This document shows positions 2,301 through 37,662 of a stretch of 64,000 bases of DNA, piece after piece. The notes below the pieces were generated by a model. That model did not search any database. It was not told where the DNA came from and worked only from the letters and a program-made list of their open reading frames with translations. The stretch spans positions 97,142-161,141 of the IMG/VR virus record IMGVR_UViG_3300024239_000013. One strand, given 5' to 3'. The position numbers and the translations under genes were made by a program. The stretch comes from a virus. Every line of letters starts with the position of its first letter. Position 1 is the stretch's first letter.

Positions 2301-2741
2301 TTAATTTTTCTGTTTTCGTATTCCTATTTGTTTTACTGCGTTTTCGGTTAATATAGGTTCATAGTGTATTAAGCATTCTATTGTAGTTTGATATAAATCC
2401 TTTACTTTTAATATAGGGACTGAACACATGTAAATAGTTCCTTTAAAAATTTCAAATCCTTCAAACAAAACTTTTTCTTTTGCTTTTTTATATCTGTAAA
2501 TTTCATCATTGTACTCTGTCATAATATTAGGAAGTCTCTGTTCATAGTCTTTAGGTTCGTATAAAATTTCATCATCTTCATCACAAGGCGCAACCATTTC
2601 TAATTTTAAAGGCTGTTTTAGAAAATTATCATAATTAGTTCTTATTTCTTCATACCAAGCAAGATATACATTTCTTGTAGGAAATTCTTTTTCTTTTGAT
2701 TTACATAACTCACCAAAAGAAGTATTTGATATTAGTTTCAT
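2301..2741 (-). CDS. hypothetical protein
   Basis: 146 residues starting MKLISNTSFGELCKSKEKE. I chose the ATG at 2741 rather than one four codons upstream because a conserved hairpin (2750-2766) lies exactly 8 nt before it, as at the gene starting at 3378. The protein is mostly helical and polar, with a YEPKDYEQRLPNIMTEYNDE region in the middle. No family recognised. Confidence 0.65.
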   Translation of the reverse strand: MKLISNTSFGELCKSKEKEFPTRNVYLAWYEEIRTNYDNFLKQPLKLEMVAPCDEDDEILYEPKDYEQRLPNIMTEYNDEIYRYKKAKEKVLFEGFEIFKGTIYMCSVPILKVKDLYQTTIECLIHYEPILTENAVKQIGIRKQKN

Positions 2742-2936
2742 AATTATTACCACTTACTACAAGTGGGAAGTTTATTTTTTTGTTATATATTTCAACACTT
2801 ATAATTCTTTCTGAGGTACGATTAATTTTCCAAATCGCTTGTTCTATTGCTCTTTCAAATGATAATGCTGAAATATTTATCCTTCGTTTTTTTTTCCAGA
2901 AATATCATTTATAATGGTAATTCTATAAGTTTCCAT
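2710..2936 (-). pseudogene. small gene split by a frameshift in an A9 run
   Basis: Starting at ATG 2936 the frame reads METYRITIINDISGKK and stops soon after a run of nine A (plus-strand T run 2887-2895). A one-base shift at the run opens RRINISALSFERAIEQAIWK and INRTSERIISVEIYNKK and continues to a stop at 2710-2712, overlapping the next gene start. Both halves look coding. It is a homopolymer sequencing error, a recent inactivation, or slippage; sequence alone cannot tell. Confidence 0.45.
2750..2766 (-). promoter_or_regulatory. leader hairpin, copy 1
   Basis: Stem CCACTT/AAGTGG with a 5-nt loop (plus-strand reading), 8 nt before the ATG at 2741, next to the shared sequence GGGAAGTTTA. The same element is found at 3387-3403, with variants at 3567-3587, 5009-5026 and 6845-6861. 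Confidence 0.6.
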
Positions 2937-2947
2937 AATTATGATTT

Positions 2948-3214
2948 TTAAATATTAATAGAATCTAATTTTTTTTCTAATTCTGCAAATAATTCCTTGT
3001 CTTTTCCTTCTTTAATTATTCCCAAAATACAACTAGTTTGATAACGCAATGAACCAACGATGTCTTTTATTCTTTGTTCTTCTAATTCTTCATCTATATG
3101 AAAATTCAAATCAACTTCATTATCTTGAACAAAATCAATTGTAAACTGTTCATAATTTCCACTATGGATTTTATCCTCATAATACCTGAAAATTTCTAAA
3201 GCTTGTTTTAACAT
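2948..3214 (-). CDS. small helical hypothetical protein
   Basis: 88 residues, acidic and helical (MLKQALEIFRYYEDKIHSGN at the start, ELFAELEKKLDSINI at the end). No family recognised. It begins 11 nt after the stop of the 50-residue gene at 3226-3378, so the two are probably cotranscribed. Confidence 0.6.
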   Translation of the reverse strand: MLKQALEIFRYYEDKIHSGNYEQFTIDFVQDNEVDLNFHIDEELEEQRIKDIVGSLRYQTSCILGIIKEGKDKELFAELEKKLDSINI

Positions 3215-3225
3215 GTTTTTAATTT

Positions 3226-3378
3226 TTATTTTTTTATTATCTTTATCTTGTCTATTGTAGGAACTATAATGTTCAATTCATGGCATTTATTACGAATTAT
3301 CATCCAAGCAGCTACTTTACTAATTGCTTTAGCTTTAAATCCATGAATTTCATCAATAAATTCTTTATTATTTTTCAT
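3226..3378 (-). CDS. small hypothetical protein (50 aa)
   Basis: Short gene reading MKNNKEFIDEIHGFKAKAIS, KVAAWMIIRNKCHELNI and ending IKIIKK. Support comes from the leader hairpin 8 nt upstream (3387-3403), an A-rich leader, and close packing with neighbours. It is mostly helical and basic at the C-terminus. Function unknown. Confidence 0.55.
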   Translation of the reverse strand: MKNNKEFIDEIHGFKAKAISKVAAWMIIRNKCHELNIIVPTIDKIKIIKK

Positions 3379-3386
3379 AATTTTTA

Positions 3387-3403
3387 CCACTTTCTACAAG
3401 TGG
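3387..3403 (-). promoter_or_regulatory. leader hairpin, copy 2
   Basis: CCACTT/AAGTGG stem with a 5-nt loop, 8 nt before the ATG at 3378. It sits in a 31-nt gap between two genes on the same strand (3410-3556 and 3226-3378), so it more likely acts in the mRNA than as a promoter. Confidence 0.6.
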
Positions 3404-3409
3404 GAAGTT

Positions 3410-3556
3410 TTATTTAAAGCCAAATTTCTTTTTACCTTTAATTTTACGCTCCGTTTTTCTACGATAGTTACGTTTTTCTCTGCTAGAAACTAAGTCAGAC
3501 TTACCTAAAAACTCGTAATCTCTAGTTATTTTATAACTATTTGTTTCTTTTTCCAT
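3410..3556 (-). CDS. small basic protein (48 aa)
   Basis: MEKETNSYKITRDYEFLGKS followed by a Lys/Arg-dense C-terminus (REKRNYRRKTERKIKGKKK). The high positive charge suggests nucleic-acid contact, by inference only. Its start is preceded by hairpin copy 3 at 10 nt. No family recognised. Confidence 0.5.
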   Translation of the reverse strand: MEKETNSYKITRDYEFLGKSDLVSSREKRNYRRKTERKIKGKKKFGFK

Positions 3557-3566
3557 TTTAGTAATT

Positions 3567-3587
3567 CCACTTCTCTATGCCTAGTGG
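3567..3587 (-). promoter_or_regulatory. leader hairpin, copy 3 (variant)
   Basis: CCACT/AGTGG stem with an 11-nt loop, 10 nt before the ATG at 3556. It is followed (plus-strand reading) by GGGAAGCTTTAAGG, shared with the copy at 5021. Confidence 0.5.
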
Positions 3588-3655
3588 GAAGCTTTAAGGT
3601 TAAATGCTCCATAGCGATTTTGTATTACTTTTATTTCGTCTATATGGATGTTATA
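3583..3655 (-). repeat. duplicated leader/promoter cassette, copy 1
   Basis: This stretch and 5021-5081 share GGGAAG.TTTAAGGTTAAA and then TGTATTACTTTTATTTCGTC through to GATGTTATA. The second copy lacks about 14 bp in the middle. Both lie directly upstream of a hairpin and a small gene, so they are probably duplicated promoter regions. No clean TAnnTTTG box is seen inside. Confidence 0.6.
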
Positions 3656-3702
3656 CACAATACTACATTAGGGTTTCAATTATAGTTCTGTGTAAAATAA
3701 AA

Positions 3703-4023
3703 TTATGAAGGTATAAATCCATATCTAAAACCTTCTCTACCGTATAACGCATCGGTACAAATAATTCCATCTGAGTTGTTAATTTCGTCTATATCTTCTT
3801 TTGTAAGTTCAGTTCTAATTAACATACTTACCATTCTATTGTTCTCATAAGAAAGTCTTTTGTTTCCATTCACATCATCAATAATTTCTAATGGTTCTAT
3901 ACCATTTTCACCAACAATACATTTTCTTGATAAAGACCAATTAACAACGCTTGGATGTTTTGTTGTAATTATTTTGTTTTGATGAACACCTGCTTTAACA
4001 TATTTTTCTACTAATTCCTTCAT
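3703..4023 (-). CDS. hypothetical protein
   Basis: 106 residues starting MKELVEKYVKAGVHQNKIIT. The ATG at 4023 was chosen over the upstream one at 4047 because it has the A-rich leader used by neighbours. The C-terminus reads DGIICTDALYGREGFRYG. No family recognised. The 147-bp gap downstream holds the duplicated leader cassette and no gene. Confidence 0.55.
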   Translation of the reverse strand: MKELVEKYVKAGVHQNKIITTKHPSVVNWSLSRKCIVGENGIEPLEIIDDVNGNKRLSYENNRMVSMLIRTELTKEDIDEINNSDGIICTDALYGREGFRYGFIPS

Positions 4024-4047
4024 ATTTTTATTTTTTTCACCGCACAA

Positions 4048-4272
4048 TTAGTTTTTAGTTAAATCTGTTCTTATCCAACAACCTATAAATTTAGCCTGCT
4101 CAATTAATTGTCTTTCAAATTCTTTAGCGTCTTCTTTTTTGATGAAAACCTTTGCTTGTCTTCTTGTGTCGTCTGACCACCCTGTTTTTACATACCAAGT
4201 TACCGTCCAGCTTTCAAGTTCTGTAACTGTTTGCATTTTCTCTTTTGGAATAAATAATTTAAATAATTTCAT
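4048..4272 (-). CDS. small hypothetical protein
   Basis: 74 residues from MKLFKLFIPKEKMQTVTELE. The upstream extension of 24 codons in the same frame is hydrophobic but lacks a leader, while ATG 4272 follows an A-rich tract. The middle reads SWTVTWYVKTGWSDDTRRQA, a probable strand-loop-strand, and the rest is helical. The 135-bp gap upstream (4273-4407) shows only short imperfect hairpins, such as TGACA/TGTCA. Confidence 0.55.
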   Translation of the reverse strand: MKLFKLFIPKEKMQTVTELESWTVTWYVKTGWSDDTRRQAKVFIKKEDAKEFERQLIEQAKFIGCWIRTDLTKN

Positions 4273-4407
4273 TTTTTTAAATTTGTTTAAGCCAACCCAC
4301 AAAAAATAAAAATATCCTATGACACGGGTTTGGCGTAATGTCACCAGATAATTTAGTGCTAAAATTTAAGCTCATGGAAAGGTGCACTAACACCAAGCAG
4401 AAAAATG

Positions 4408-4587
4408 TTAGATGAAATTCTTTTCAATAAAATCATCTAATCCCATTTTACGAAGTTTGCTATTTAATATCTCCCCTTTTTTATTACATTCTGTACCTCT
4501 TTTTGATTTTTCAAGATAGAATGTGTAAAACTCTAAACCTATTGGGTTTTCATATTTTTTTGATAATTCTGCTTTATAAATTTCCAT
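4408..4587 (-). CDS. small hypothetical protein (59 aa)
   Basis: Starts MEIYKAELSKKYENPIGLEF at 4587, chosen because TTTAACTTAAAAAAAA lies immediately upstream; a longer in-frame start at 4629 is less likely. Basic and helical, single Cys. No family recognised. Confidence 0.5.
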   Translation of the reverse strand: MEIYKAELSKKYENPIGLEFYTFYLEKSKRGTECNKKGEILNSKLRKMGLDDFIEKNFI

Positions 4588-4689
4588 TTTATTTTTTTTT
4601 AAGTTAAACATTTGTTTTTCCAAAGTCACTACATCACAAATGCTTTAGCGAGACCATAGTTATTAAGTTAAATTTTAGTTATAGTCCTT

Positions 4690-4998
4690 TTACGAAAGTG
4701 ATAACTCCTCTTCGCAAATAGTTTGAATCATTGCAATCCTAAATCCGGAACGAAGTCCAAACTTAGAATCATTACAATCTACATCTTTAATTTTTGTATA
4801 AACTTTTTTCCAAAACTCTATGTCTTGCTTCATTTCATCGATAATTAAATCAACCAAATTGCAAAACATATCCCAAGATTGGTTATCAAACGAATCAACG
4901 TTTTCTAAAACAAATTTTTGAAACTCATTTTTTGCTTCTTCGGAATTATGTCTTTGATTTCCGAGTTGTATCATTTTTACTTTATTATCCCAGTGCAT
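4690..4998 (-). CDS. helical hypothetical protein
   Basis: 102 residues, predicted almost wholly helical and acidic (EEAKNEFQKFVLENVDSFDN; NLVDLIIDEMKQDIEFWKKV). No family recognised. A degenerate leader hairpin and the second copy of the duplicated cassette lie just upstream. Confidence 0.6.
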   Translation of the reverse strand: MHWDNKVKMIQLGNQRHNSEEAKNEFQKFVLENVDSFDNQSWDMFCNLVDLIIDEMKQDIEFWKKVYTKIKDVDCNDSKFGLRSGFRIAMIQTICEEELSLS

Positions 4999-5008
4999 AA
5001 TTTTATTT

Positions 5009-5026
5009 CACTTGCTTTATAGCGGG
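5009..5026 (-). promoter_or_regulatory. leader hairpin, degenerate copy 4
   Basis: CACTTGCTTTATAGCGGG occupies the same place as the other leader hairpins but pairs poorly (GCT/AGC core only). It sits 10 nt before the ATG at 4998. Confidence 0.3.
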
Positions 5027-5081
5027 AAGTTTTAAGGTTAAAGGTTTGTATTACTTTTATTTCGTCTATATAGATGTTATA
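5021..5081 (-). repeat. duplicated leader/promoter cassette, copy 2
   Basis: Second copy of the cassette at 3583-3655, shorter by about 14 bp. It lies between the S24-like gene (5089-5379) and the gene it probably serves (4690-4998). Confidence 0.6.
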
Positions 5082-5088
5082 TGCAAGG

Positions 5089-5379
5089 CTAAATAACCTC
5101 TACCACACGACCATAAACTTGCTTTGTCCATCCATTGATACCACCTTTATTATTTCCGATGAGCAATCCCTTTTCGTTGTTTTTGCCCTTAACCAAGTGA
5201 GTGTAAAAATTACCTTTCACTTTACAATAAACAATATCACCTTCATTACATTCTTCCCACTTTACAGGAGCAAGTTTATGTTCCTGTCCTGATTTAATTA
5301 GTGGTATCATTGAGTTTCCTTTTTCACTTGTTACAAACGTTTCTCCATTCTGTAACTTTTCTAATTTGTAATTTTTCAT
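5089..5379 (-). CDS. S24/LexA-fold phage protein, probably non-proteolytic
   Basis: 96 residues. GNSMIPLIKSGQ (about residues 21-32) matches the serine-containing start of the S24 fold. GDIVYCKVKGNFYTHLVKG and IGNNKGGINGW match the core and the conserved end of a phage-specific branch of the family. In LexA-type proteases the catalytic Lys would lie near the YTHLV segment, where this protein has His, so cleavage activity is doubtful. It lacks a DNA-binding domain. A frameshifted second copy is at 289-574. It starts one base after the stop of the upstream gene. Confidence 0.75.
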   Translation of the reverse strand: MKNYKLEKLQNGETFVTSEKGNSMIPLIKSGQEHKLAPVKWEECNEGDIVYCKVKGNFYTHLVKGKNNEKGLLIGNNKGGINGWTKQVYGRVVEVI

Positions 5380-5380
5380 T

Positions 5381-5671
5381 CTATTTAACTTTAAATTTTA
5401 CTAGTTCTCCAAAATCCATTAATTTACCTCTAAAATCACAAATTTTAGATTTTCCTGAAACCTTATAATAAGGGCAATCCTTATTACATTCAGATTTATC
5501 ACCAACAGTTTCTAATTCTGAACACCATATATAATCTTTTTCTTTTGAAGGAATTGCTTCAAAAAGTTCTATTTCATTCAATCCTTCTTCTTTTGCTCTT
5601 TCTAAATAAGTTTGTAAAGGATAACAAATGTTAGCATCTTCATTTTCAAAATATAATTTTTCTGTTTTCAT
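5381..5671 (-). CDS. Cys-rich hypothetical protein
   Basis: 96 residues. The middle has four to five cysteines (IWCSELETVGDKSECNKDCP, then KSKICDFRG), so metal binding is possible. No family recognised. It is tightly linked to the S24-like gene (one-base gap) and to the tandem genes upstream. Confidence 0.6.
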   Translation of the reverse strand: MKTEKLYFENEDANICYPLQTYLERAKEEGLNEIELFEAIPSKEKDYIWCSELETVGDKSECNKDCPYYKVSGKSKICDFRGKLMDFGELVKFKVK

Positions 5672-5674
5672 AAC

Positions 5675-6163
5675 TTAATTTTCTTTCAATTTAATCCAAC
5701 CATATTCAATTAGGTTATCTACAGATAAACCCACGTAAGGTAATGCATAACCTTTAGAACGGAGGTAATCAAAAACTTGCATCCAATTTTTAATTCCATT
5801 AGTACTAGAAGTAGTTCCGCTGTCATTAATTGAAGTTCTAAAAATTGATAGTATTAATTCTTTAATTGCACCAGATAAATGACCTAGTCCAAATATTTTA
5901 GAAACCTCAATAGCATCTTCATCACTTATCTGTGAAAGTGGGTTTAGTATTAATTGGCATTCATTTATATTTGCATTACATGATAATTCATTTTTTTCAA
6001 AATTTTCATCTTCTAATGATACTATCCAAACCTGCTTTGTAAAATTTCCACATGATAAATAGAATGAAACTATATTTCCTATTCTATCTTGGTAAAATAC
6101 TTGTTGATTTAAATACTGAGCAAAAAACTTTGCTTTATTTTCTAATGTGTTTTCTGTTTTCAT
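5675..6163 (-). CDS. tandem paralogue 1 of a Bacteroidetes phage family
   Basis: 162 residues. The ends, NTLENKAKFFAQY at the start and YLRSKGYALP...LSVDNLIEYGWIKLKEN at the finish, are almost identical to those of the next gene (6167-6628), while the middle is quite different. The pattern LENKAKFFA...L.PLSQISDEDA...YLRSKGYALP is common in Bacteroidetes phages and prophages; function unknown. The pair arose by tandem duplication, followed by divergence of the core or conversion of the ends. Confidence 0.75.
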   Translation of the reverse strand: MKTENTLENKAKFFAQYLNQQVFYQDRIGNIVSFYLSCGNFTKQVWIVSLEDENFEKNELSCNANINECQLILNPLSQISDEDAIEVSKIFGLGHLSGAIKELILSIFRTSINDSGTTSSTNGIKNWMQVFDYLRSKGYALPYVGLSVDNLIEYGWIKLKEN

Positions 6164-6166
6164 AAC

Positions 6167-6628
6167 TTAATTTTCTTTCAATTTAATCCAACCATATTCA
6201 ATTAGGTTATCTACAGATAAATCCATCCAAGGTAATGCATAACCTTTGGAACGAAAGTAATCACATTCCTTTGACCCAATTTTTCTATCACCATTCCAAT
6301 GATGGAGACTTCTGAAGGTCTTAAAATTACGACCTAATTCAATCGAGGCAATTTCACTAAAAGTAAAATAATGATTAACTTCCAATATCTCCCCTAGTTC
6401 ATCATAAGTTTTATTATATGTAAACATAATGCCCTGGATCGTGTCTTCATTACTAATCTGTGAAAGTGGTTTTAGCTCTAAGTAACTCCTATCTATACCA
6501 TACATATTCGATGTATCTACAGGATAAATTTCTTTATTCCCTGAATTTGATATATCCGATAAAACTTTTTGTCCCCAATACTGAGCAAAAAACTTTGCTT
6601 TATTTTCTAATGTGTTTTGTGTTTTCAT
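6167..6628 (-). CDS. tandem paralogue 2 of a Bacteroidetes phage family
   Basis: 153 residues with the same start (MKTQNTLENKAKFFAQYWGQ) and end (DYFRSKGYALPWMDLSVDN) as 5675-6163 and a diverged centre that keeps LKPLSQISNEDTI. Gaps of 3-5 bp to both neighbours indicate one transcript with 6634-6834. Confidence 0.75.
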   Translation of the reverse strand: MKTQNTLENKAKFFAQYWGQKVLSDISNSGNKEIYPVDTSNMYGIDRSYLELKPLSQISNEDTIQGIMFTYNKTYDELGEILEVNHYFTFSEIASIELGRNFKTFRSLHHWNGDRKIGSKECDYFRSKGYALPWMDLSVDNLIEYGWIKLKEN

Positions 6629-6633
6629 AATTT

Positions 6634-6834
6634 TTAATCTTTTTCTAAGTAAATTATCCCTTCACCTTCCAATAAGATATTGTCTGCAATATCTGAAAAA
6701 ATGTCTGGTGCCTCTATTAATGCATCGTCACTTTGCTGTATACATTCTCCTATTCCATGTTTTTCTAAAAACTCTGTTATTTTTTCTATTGCTAATTCTT
6801 TTTTTTCGGTTGTCCAATTTACTTGATATGCCAT
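6634..6834 (-). CDS. small acidic hypothetical protein
   Basis: 66 residues (MAYQVNWTTEKKELAIEKIT start), acidic, helical then beta. No family recognised. It is the first gene of an operon: a leader hairpin (6845-6861) is 10 nt upstream and a CG-N10-TATATTTA promoter candidate (6948-6967) lies further up. Confidence 0.6.
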   Translation of the reverse strand: MAYQVNWTTEKKELAIEKITEFLEKHGIGECIQQSDDALIEAPDIFSDIADNILLEGEGIIYLEKD

Positions 6835-6844
6835 AATCTTTAAT

Positions 6845-6861
6845 TCACTTAATATAAGTGA
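6845..6861 (-). promoter_or_regulatory. leader hairpin, copy 5 (compensatory change)
   Basis: TCACTT/AAGTGA with a 5-nt loop. Relative to copies 1 and 2 (CCACTT/AAGTGG) both partners of the outer pair have changed, preserving pairing. That supports a selected RNA structure. It sits 10 nt before the ATG at 6834. Confidence 0.6.
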
Positions 6862-6947
6862 GAATTTTTTATTAAATAAGATTAAATTAAATATTATTTC
6901 TGGGATAAAGTTGTTATTTTAATGAGGTATAAAAACCTATCTGAATG

Positions 6948-36105: not shown

Positions 36106-37662
36106 CTATGAATTCTTTAAACTTTCTTTTAGACGATTTCTAACATCCTCTAGAGTTGTTCTATTTTTAAATTCACCATTTAGATATATTGTTTTTAGTT
36201 CACCTTGATTTTCTCTTTCCCAATCACAGTGATCGTATAATTCATATTTACCATCAACGTCATTTTTAAATACTGATAATAAACCGGTTGCAGATTTTTT
36301 AATACCATCATCTGTAATAGGATCTTTGAAGATTTCTCTTGCTTCTCCATTTACTTCTACGTAGGTTGCTTTCATTGCGAAACCGAAAGTATCACGTGTA
36401 TTGTACTGATATGTAAATGAACCAATTCCTAAAACAACGTTGGTTGATGCGAATCCTTTTTCTGCTAATCTTCTACAAATTTCTTCTGCTCTTTCTAATG
36501 TAATAGAATCTCCATAAATTGCACCGATATGAGGATCTAAAACCTTATATCCCTGCTCGTTCACCTCCCCGCCGAAAACATCCCATAAAAGTTCAATAAC
36601 ACCCTTAAATTCAGGTCTATCCCATTCGTCAACATCATCGTAATACTTAAATGCTTCTAGCGCTTTTGGATTGGTATTAAGTCCGCATAAGATATCTACT
36701 GGATCCCCACTATCAGGTCTAATTACCAATTTACCATCTCTGGATAGAATTTCATCCTTTAATTCTTTGACATGACTAGTACAAACTTTCCACAAATCCC
36801 ATGTATCCGATACCACAGATAGAATCCCAGTAGGATATGTCTTAATGAGTCTTCTAAAAGTTTCTAGTTCGTCTTCCTTTCCTCCTGCGCACATTACAGA
36901 ATGTTCAGTTGCATTTACACTTCCACAAACCATTCCTTCTGCATGATAGTATTTACGAGCTCCGTAAATAGTTGGTAAGCTATCAGATCCCAAGAAAGAA
37001 GTAAGGTGAGAAACACCGGAAGAGATTACAGCCTCTACCGAGTCCATCCCTCTCATAGAGAAATCGTGACCTTGCCAATCAACGAACCAAGATTTTTCGG
37101 CATCTGTTTTTTCTTGCCATTTTGTAAGAATCTTTCTGTATTGGTGTGCGATGGTTGCTGAAGTCATCGGTTTCCATAAAAGATTTGATAATATAGTTTC
37201 TAGATAATTGGTAACCCAATAGAACTTAGGGTGTGTGTTGTATATGGTTAAAACCGGAACCCTAATAGGAACTAAGCTACCTTCATCTATAGCTTTAACG
37301 TGGATTGGAAGATATCCAAGATCCCATAATTCCTGGAAGTGCGTTACATCGTAATCAGATCCCAGATACATTGAAAGTTCTTTTTTCATTTCTTCAACAA
37401 CTGGAACTAGATAAGTTGGATCGTTTTTTCTTTTAACTAACATAAGATCTCTTTCTAGACCGTGTTGGAAAAATTCTTTTTCAAAAGCTTCGTGTATTTG
37501 CATCATCGTCATCTGCTCTCCAAAGCTAACGACTGCGTCACAACCAGAAGGTGCATATTTATTACTTCTTGGAGTGAAATTAGAGTAAACTAGTTCTGTT
37601 CCTTCTGGGTATTGTTGATGGTGTCCTGTTTTATAACCATCTGTTAAAAGTAGTGGATTCAT
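36106..37662 (-). CDS. nadV: nicotinamide phosphoribosyltransferase (NadV/NAMPT) family
   Basis: 518 residues, close to NAMPT length. NPLLLTDGYKTGHHQQYPEG, YSNFTPRSNKY, GHDFSMRGMDSVEAVISSG, ATEHSVMCAGG, LVIRPDSGDPVDILCG and GIGSFTYQYNTRDTFGFAMK are the family's signatures, including the phosphate-binding RPDSGDP and GIGS loops. It joins nicotinamide to PRPP to make NMN. In phage NARP1 modules a homologue (Namat) instead uses ADP-ribose pyrophosphate to make NAD+ directly. The adjacent prs-like gene (18-bp gap) makes either activity possible. A terminator follows. Confidence 0.93.
   Translation of the reverse strand: MNPLLLTDGYKTGHHQQYPEGTELVYSNFTPRSNKYAPSGCDAVVSFGEQMTMMQIHEAFEKEFFQHGLERDLMLVKRKNDPTYLVPVVEEMKKELSMYLGSDYDVTHFQELWDLGYLPIHVKAIDEGSLVPIRVPVLTIYNTHPKFYWVTNYLETILSNLLWKPMTSATIAHQYRKILTKWQEKTDAEKSWFVDWQGHDFSMRGMDSVEAVISSGVSHLTSFLGSDSLPTIYGARKYYHAEGMVCGSVNATEHSVMCAGGKEDELETFRRLIKTYPTGILSVVSDTWDLWKVCTSHVKELKDEILSRDGKLVIRPDSGDPVDILCGLNTNPKALEAFKYYDDVDEWDRPEFKGVIELLWDVFGGEVNEQGYKVLDPHIGAIYGDSITLERAEEICRRLAEKGFASTNVVLGIGSFTYQYNTRDTFGFAMKATYVEVNGEAREIFKDPITDDGIKKSATGLLSVFKNDVDGKYELYDHCDWERENQGELKTIYLNGEFKNRTTLEDVRNRLKESLKNS

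Follow-up and report, generated by a model that had tools for sequence, protein, structure and literature searches.

A start-associated hairpin leader with conserved pairing before small genes of Flavobacteriaceae phages

The window, a stretch of 64,000 nucleotides, comprises bases 97142-161141 of a 319,334-base (319-kb) phage record. Five small genes on its minus strand are preceded by a common leader, which in the mRNA sense consists of (T)AAAACUUC, a hairpin of 4-7 bp, an A/U-rich spacer of 8-10 nt and the AUG. The hairpin most commonly has the form CCACUU-N5-AAGUGG, and the consensus of the aligned leaders is TAAAACTTCCCACTTGTAGTAAGTGG.

Leader 1 (2739..2786, minus strand; 56.9 bits, MFE -6.7) contains AAACTTC, the hairpin CCACTTG-TAG-TAAGTGG (2750-2766) and an 8-nt spacer before the ATG of the gene at 2301-2741. 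In leader 2 (3376..3423, minus strand; 56.1 bits), AAAACTTC is followed by the hairpin CCACTT-GTAGA-AAGTGG (3387-3403) and, after 8 nt, by the ATG of the gene at 3226-3378. An earlier note on this DNA had reported CCACTT-N5-AAGTGG before the starts at 2741 and 3378, and both copies could be located on the plus strand at these positions, 8 nt from the CAT. The second copy lies in the 31-nt intergenic gap inside a gene run that the note had described (3379-3409). Likewise, the TCACTT-N5-AAGTGA version reported before 6834 was found in leader 5 (6832..6881, minus strand; 40.2 bits), where AAAAATTC precedes the hairpin TCACTTA-TAT-TAAGTGA (6845-6861), with both partners of the stem altered, and a 10-nt spacer leads to the ATG of the gene at 6634-6834. 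The variants described before 3556 and 4998 proved to be two weaker forms. Leader 3 (3554..3607, minus strand; 42.2 bits) combines AAAGCTTC with the hairpin CCACT-N11-AGTGG (3567-3587), a 5-bp stem with an 11-nt loop, and 10 nt before the ATG of the gene at 3410-3556. Leader 4 (4996..5045, minus strand; 38.9 bits) combines AAAACTTC with the degenerate hairpin CGCT-N8-AGTG (5009-5024), a weak fold with a 4-bp stem including one G-U pair, and 10 nt before the ATG of the gene at 4690-4998. The conserved adjoining 'GGGAAGTTTTA' is present as well, but the note had left its strand unstated; because the leader genes are on the minus strand, it reads TAAAACTTCCC in the mRNA, 5' of the hairpin.

Several other genes of the window were noted. 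The region 300-600 resembles a decayed copy of the gene at 5089-5379, which shows 81% identity to a 634-kb uncultured phage (LR745206). Related genes lie in tandem at 5675-6163 and 6167-6628, their leaders being devoid of the hairpin, and a nicotinamide phosphoribosyltransferase is encoded at 36106-37662 (phrog_448, E 8e-193).

The exact form CACTT-N5-AAGTG occurs three times in the window, compared with 0.06 expected, and 0 of 100 shuffles reach three; the 23-nt form gave two matches at up to three mismatches (0 expected). When two mismatches were permitted, the palindrome on its own was at background level (29 versus 29.2 expected), and the signal therefore lies in the exact stem together with AAACTTC. 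Individual hairpins have low stability (-2.5 to -10.8 kcal/mol) and the folding energy of single copies was unremarkable (z from -2.7 to +0.2); the evidence for the hairpin is comparative.

The number of five small genes given in the note holds for the window and is too low beyond it, as 12 copies are present in the record and dozens in other phages. Besides the five in the window, the record contains six copies in the adjoining 80-97 kb stretch and one at ~54.5 kb, so that 11 of the 12 are clustered within 12.3 kb. In total, 52 distinct leaders were gathered from ~25 viral contigs and prophages (Flavobacterium, Myroides, Paenimyroides), part of them with patterns favouring CCACT/AGTGG. A pattern scan of viral contigs returned 33 stretches, ~20 of which lie in A/T-rich DNA of flavobacterial type with the full TAAAACTTC context; the remaining ones look like chance matches. 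Seven of the eight loci from a genome scan belong to Flavobacteriaceae (Flavobacterium, Myroides, Paenimyroides), and the eighth, on a contig filed as Atribacteria and lacking the context, is probably a chance match. Among 299 genomes of one group, 10 copies were detected in 7 genomes, versus one match for a reversed control pattern. A covariance search of 397 Flavobacteriaceae genomes, with a coarse first filter, identified the element in one of them. BLAST of the consensus against phage and plasmid collections gave weak chance matches alone, and searches for relatives returned only the query.

Large phages carry the element, as do siphovirus-like prophages and a Mu-like prophage; shared genes divide the carriers into at least four phage groups in addition to the Mu-like prophage. 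At the host loci that were checked, the surrounding genes are phage genes (portal, head protease, DnaB helicase). In a Flavobacterium prophage, an AbiH-like abortive infection gene (L047:2353-3441) lies near two of the hairpin leaders. An HNH-endonuclease-like gene that has a hairpin leader of its own (L009:13195-13712, minus strand) seems to have been inserted close to the 5' end of a paralogue, with a ACTAATATCAA-like repeat at both ends. As far as searched, the element was not found in host genes. A tie to the downstream gene was rejected, as the leader is absent from 12 of 14 lipoprotein orthologues and from 30 of 31 loci with the MxTGIEL gene. With host genes and most orthologues lacking it, the element is, judged by its sequence distribution, a portable, phage-borne leader.

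Such a distribution could also arise if the hairpin were a recombination joint where phages swap small gene cassettes, its association with starts being a by-product. Three large phages indeed share the same upstream RHH-like gene and hairpin with different downstream genes, 50-nt leaders are near-identical between unrelated phages, and orthologues exist both with and without the leader. However, exchange alone would not keep the pairing across different stems or the spacing of 8-10 nt, and no recombinase, nor any other gene family, is common to all carriers. This explanation is considered highly improbable.

When the 52 leaders were aligned, 95.8% of cells were paired. Both sides were changed in three of the six stem pairs, amounting to 16 such cells compared with 1.9 in shuffles, although relatedness inflates such counts and the independent changes are therefore fewer than 16. 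The covariation score of 0.201 (0.073 in shuffled alignments) was reached in 0 of 500 shuffles and fell to at most 0.03 with slid partners. The earlier note had named a loss of pairing in homologous leaders as evidence against its hairpin; on these values, pairing is kept. The stems comprise CCACUU/AAGUGG, CCGAUU/AAUCGG, CCUAUU/AAUAGG and UCACUU/AAGUGA, with G-U and U-G intermediates, and at least four stem types were seen across unrelated phages. New stems were obtained with a degenerate pattern that equally admits unpaired combinations; every match in the right context paired 5 of 5, whereas matches with unpaired positions sat in unrelated contexts. Orthologous genes can have stems that differ yet pair, namely CCACTT/AAGTGG in L016 and L009 and CCGATT/AATCGG in L096, where the orthologue is a shortened reading frame. 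In a second orthologue pair, CCACTT/AAGTGG in L041 and CCGCTT/AAGTGG in L093 are both paired.

The distance between hairpin and AUG is 8-10 nt in nearly all of 50 leaders, with a mode of 9. One leader has 11 nt, and four seemingly shorter spacers result from an earlier ATG within the spacer. This distance stays fixed while the loop varies from 3 to 11 nt, and with queries that contained no ATG, every match still had an ATG 8-10 nt downstream. An A is present at -3 in 36 and at -6 in 33 of the 50 leaders, in agreement with the published start context of Flavobacterium (PMC6847099). This Kozak-like context has A at -3 and -6 and makes no use of a Shine-Dalgarno sequence (PMC6847099, PMC9976891), and ribosomes of Flavobacteriaceae do not engage in Shine-Dalgarno pairing (PMC9976891). 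The leaders resemble it in both A positions and in having no Shine-Dalgarno. In this context, A at -12 and -13 aids initiation and structure near the start codon tends to reduce it (PMC6847099, PMC9976891); Flavobacterium host genes prefer A at -12/-13 and low structure, whereas the element has a hairpin there. No complementarity of 7 nt or more was found between TTTAAAACTTCCC and host 16S rRNA, the longest match in three host 16S sequences being 6 nt; matches of at most 6 nt speak against a Shine-Dalgarno or other 16S-pairing leader.

No conserved box could be identified upstream. Between -60 and -2 relative to AAAACTTC, no more than a weak A bias was observed anywhere, and only T at -1 stands out. 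A Bacteroidota promoter, with -33/-7 boxes at a fixed distance, is disfavoured since no conserved box lies within 60 nt upstream, and an intrinsic terminator was dismissed because the coding-strand stem leads into an A/T-rich spacer and ATG, not into a T run. N4-type promoters for virion RNA polymerase are hairpins with a fixed 3-nt loop, in phages that also encode the giant virion RNA polymerase; here, loops have 3-11 nt and the carriers share no gene family. Some leaders are preceded by the promoter- or operator-like repeat ATATAGACGAAATAAAAGTAATACAAA, at 3619..3645 (minus strand) before leader 3 and at 5045..5071 (minus strand) before leader 4. The repeat also occurs in another large phage, upstream of hairpin leaders or of a small RHH-like gene; sites outside the window are L009:11933-, L009:12581- and L029:4241+. 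Separately, 334 long ORFs of record G000 have 36 occurrences of a GATATATA box in their upstream 70 nt (1.8 expected). Most of these lie at -24 to -39 relative to the starts of longer genes (window 34298- and L167:5632- are examples), and the box resembles a late promoter of this phage. Also enriched before starts in G000 are AGTATAGC at ~-43 and AAATGATCT at -24 to -30, a possible second promoter class.

The repeat before some copies would fit a DNA-level element before accessory genes, either a promoter or an operator bound by a dimeric repressor. The co-changing arms of an inverted repeat would suit a dimer site as well, and the ESAS repeats of mycobacteriophage Adephagia were later interpreted as promoters (PMC11373665). 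Nevertheless, loops of 3-11 nt occur with the same arms, G-U intermediates exist, copies sit within 31-nt gaps of gene runs, and the element has a single orientation and a fixed AUG distance but no conserved upstream box. Since a palindromic operator is unlikely to tolerate such loop variation or to need one orientation and a fixed distance to the AUG, the data fit best with an RNA function close to the ribosome, and a DNA-level function seems quite unlikely. The preference of the earlier note for an RNA-level role over a promoter is supported by the missing upstream box, the variable loop, the single orientation and the 8-10 nt to the AUG.

At the RNA level, the element could serve processing or stability, with an endonuclease cutting polycistronic mRNA at the A/U-rich AAAAC-UUC just 5' of the hairpin and leaving a protective 5' hairpin on each downstream gene. 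An A/U-rich single strand immediately 5' of a stem, as found here, is the usual context of RNase E-type cleavage. Many of the copies occupy short gaps separating co-directional genes, and the upstream stop is often located in TAAAAC or in the loop; this location is common but not universal, and strict coupling to the upstream stop codon was rejected. Processing leaves both the tight AUG distance and the exact conservation of AAAACUUCCC in unrelated phages unexplained, and is regarded as unlikely.

The preferred reading, to which a probability of roughly 60% is assigned, is that of a portable cis-acting RNA element working at translation initiation. The anatomy, the conserved pairing, the fixed spacing, the start association and the spread over unrelated phages are established from sequence; the choice of translation control over RNA processing is one that we infer. 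The mRNA would present a conserved single-stranded AAAACUUC and then a short hairpin that is kept in its pairing rather than in its exact letters and that ends 8-10 nt before the AUG, at the place of a Shine-Dalgarno helix. The element would then act in the 30S initiation region of Flavobacteriaceae, where the 30S platform may hold the hairpin as one compact body, or a host factor may bind it there, so that the A-rich AAAACUUC is drawn near the AUG. If the hairpin counts as one unit, AAAA would lie ~14-17 nt before the AUG, near the A-rich host determinants at -12/-13 described in F. johnsoniae (PMC9976891). In this way, the start efficiency of small accessory genes in operons could be set regardless of the upstream sequence.

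Within this reading, the simplest alternative is that the element binds a protein acting as repressor or activator. As structure near the start tends to reduce initiation (PMC6847099, PMC9976891), the hairpin, lying at roughly -10 to -27, may be repressive instead of helping. Phage bS21 was rejected as a reader, since phage-encoded bS21 is absent from 15 carrier records, and so was a trans-acting phage gene common to the carriers, none being present across them. With no gene family shared by all carriers, the partner of the element, if any, is probably host-encoded. More specifically, a preformed mRNA helix might replace the Shine-Dalgarno helix on ribosomes that disregard Shine-Dalgarno sequences, its reader being a host ribosomal component not employed in this way by host genes, an idea that is doubtful. 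Because pairing is kept despite letter changes, the hairpin looks like a common, previously undescribed translation switch or docking signal of Flavobacteriaceae viruses. For the question of how Bacteroidota choose start codons without Shine-Dalgarno pairing, a paired element found in unrelated phages that infect a single bacterial family offers a compact, testable handle, as well as a marker for small phage genes expressed under common control.

No Rfam match was obtained at the elements of 6 multi-copy loci (E up to 5), and a literature search for publications printing a piece of the sequence gave no phage work among the matches listed. Translational operators and 5' hairpins of the T4 type likewise place a short hairpin near the start codon of phage genes. 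They occur as one per phage, whereas here one element is common to unrelated phages and a homologous regulator was not found. The nearest analogue is the SAS/ESAS of cluster K mycobacteriophages, a repeated short element of 13 bp, GGGATAGGAGCCC, with a Shine-Dalgarno core (PMC3203893). Like the present element, it directly precedes the starts of some, but not all, small non-structural phage genes, in certain cases contains the upstream stop, is rare in host genomes and is variably present among orthologues (PMC3203893). In contrast, TAAAACTTCCCACTTGTAGTAAGTGG has no such core, and its carriers are unrelated phages of another phylum. The inverted repeats of SAS/ESAS were reported as not supporting RNA pairing and were later read as promoters (PMC11373665), whereas the pairing described here covaries (0.201 versus 0.073). 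Given these differences in sequence and RNA covariation, the element is filed as a phage start-associated element, here with a conserved RNA structure.
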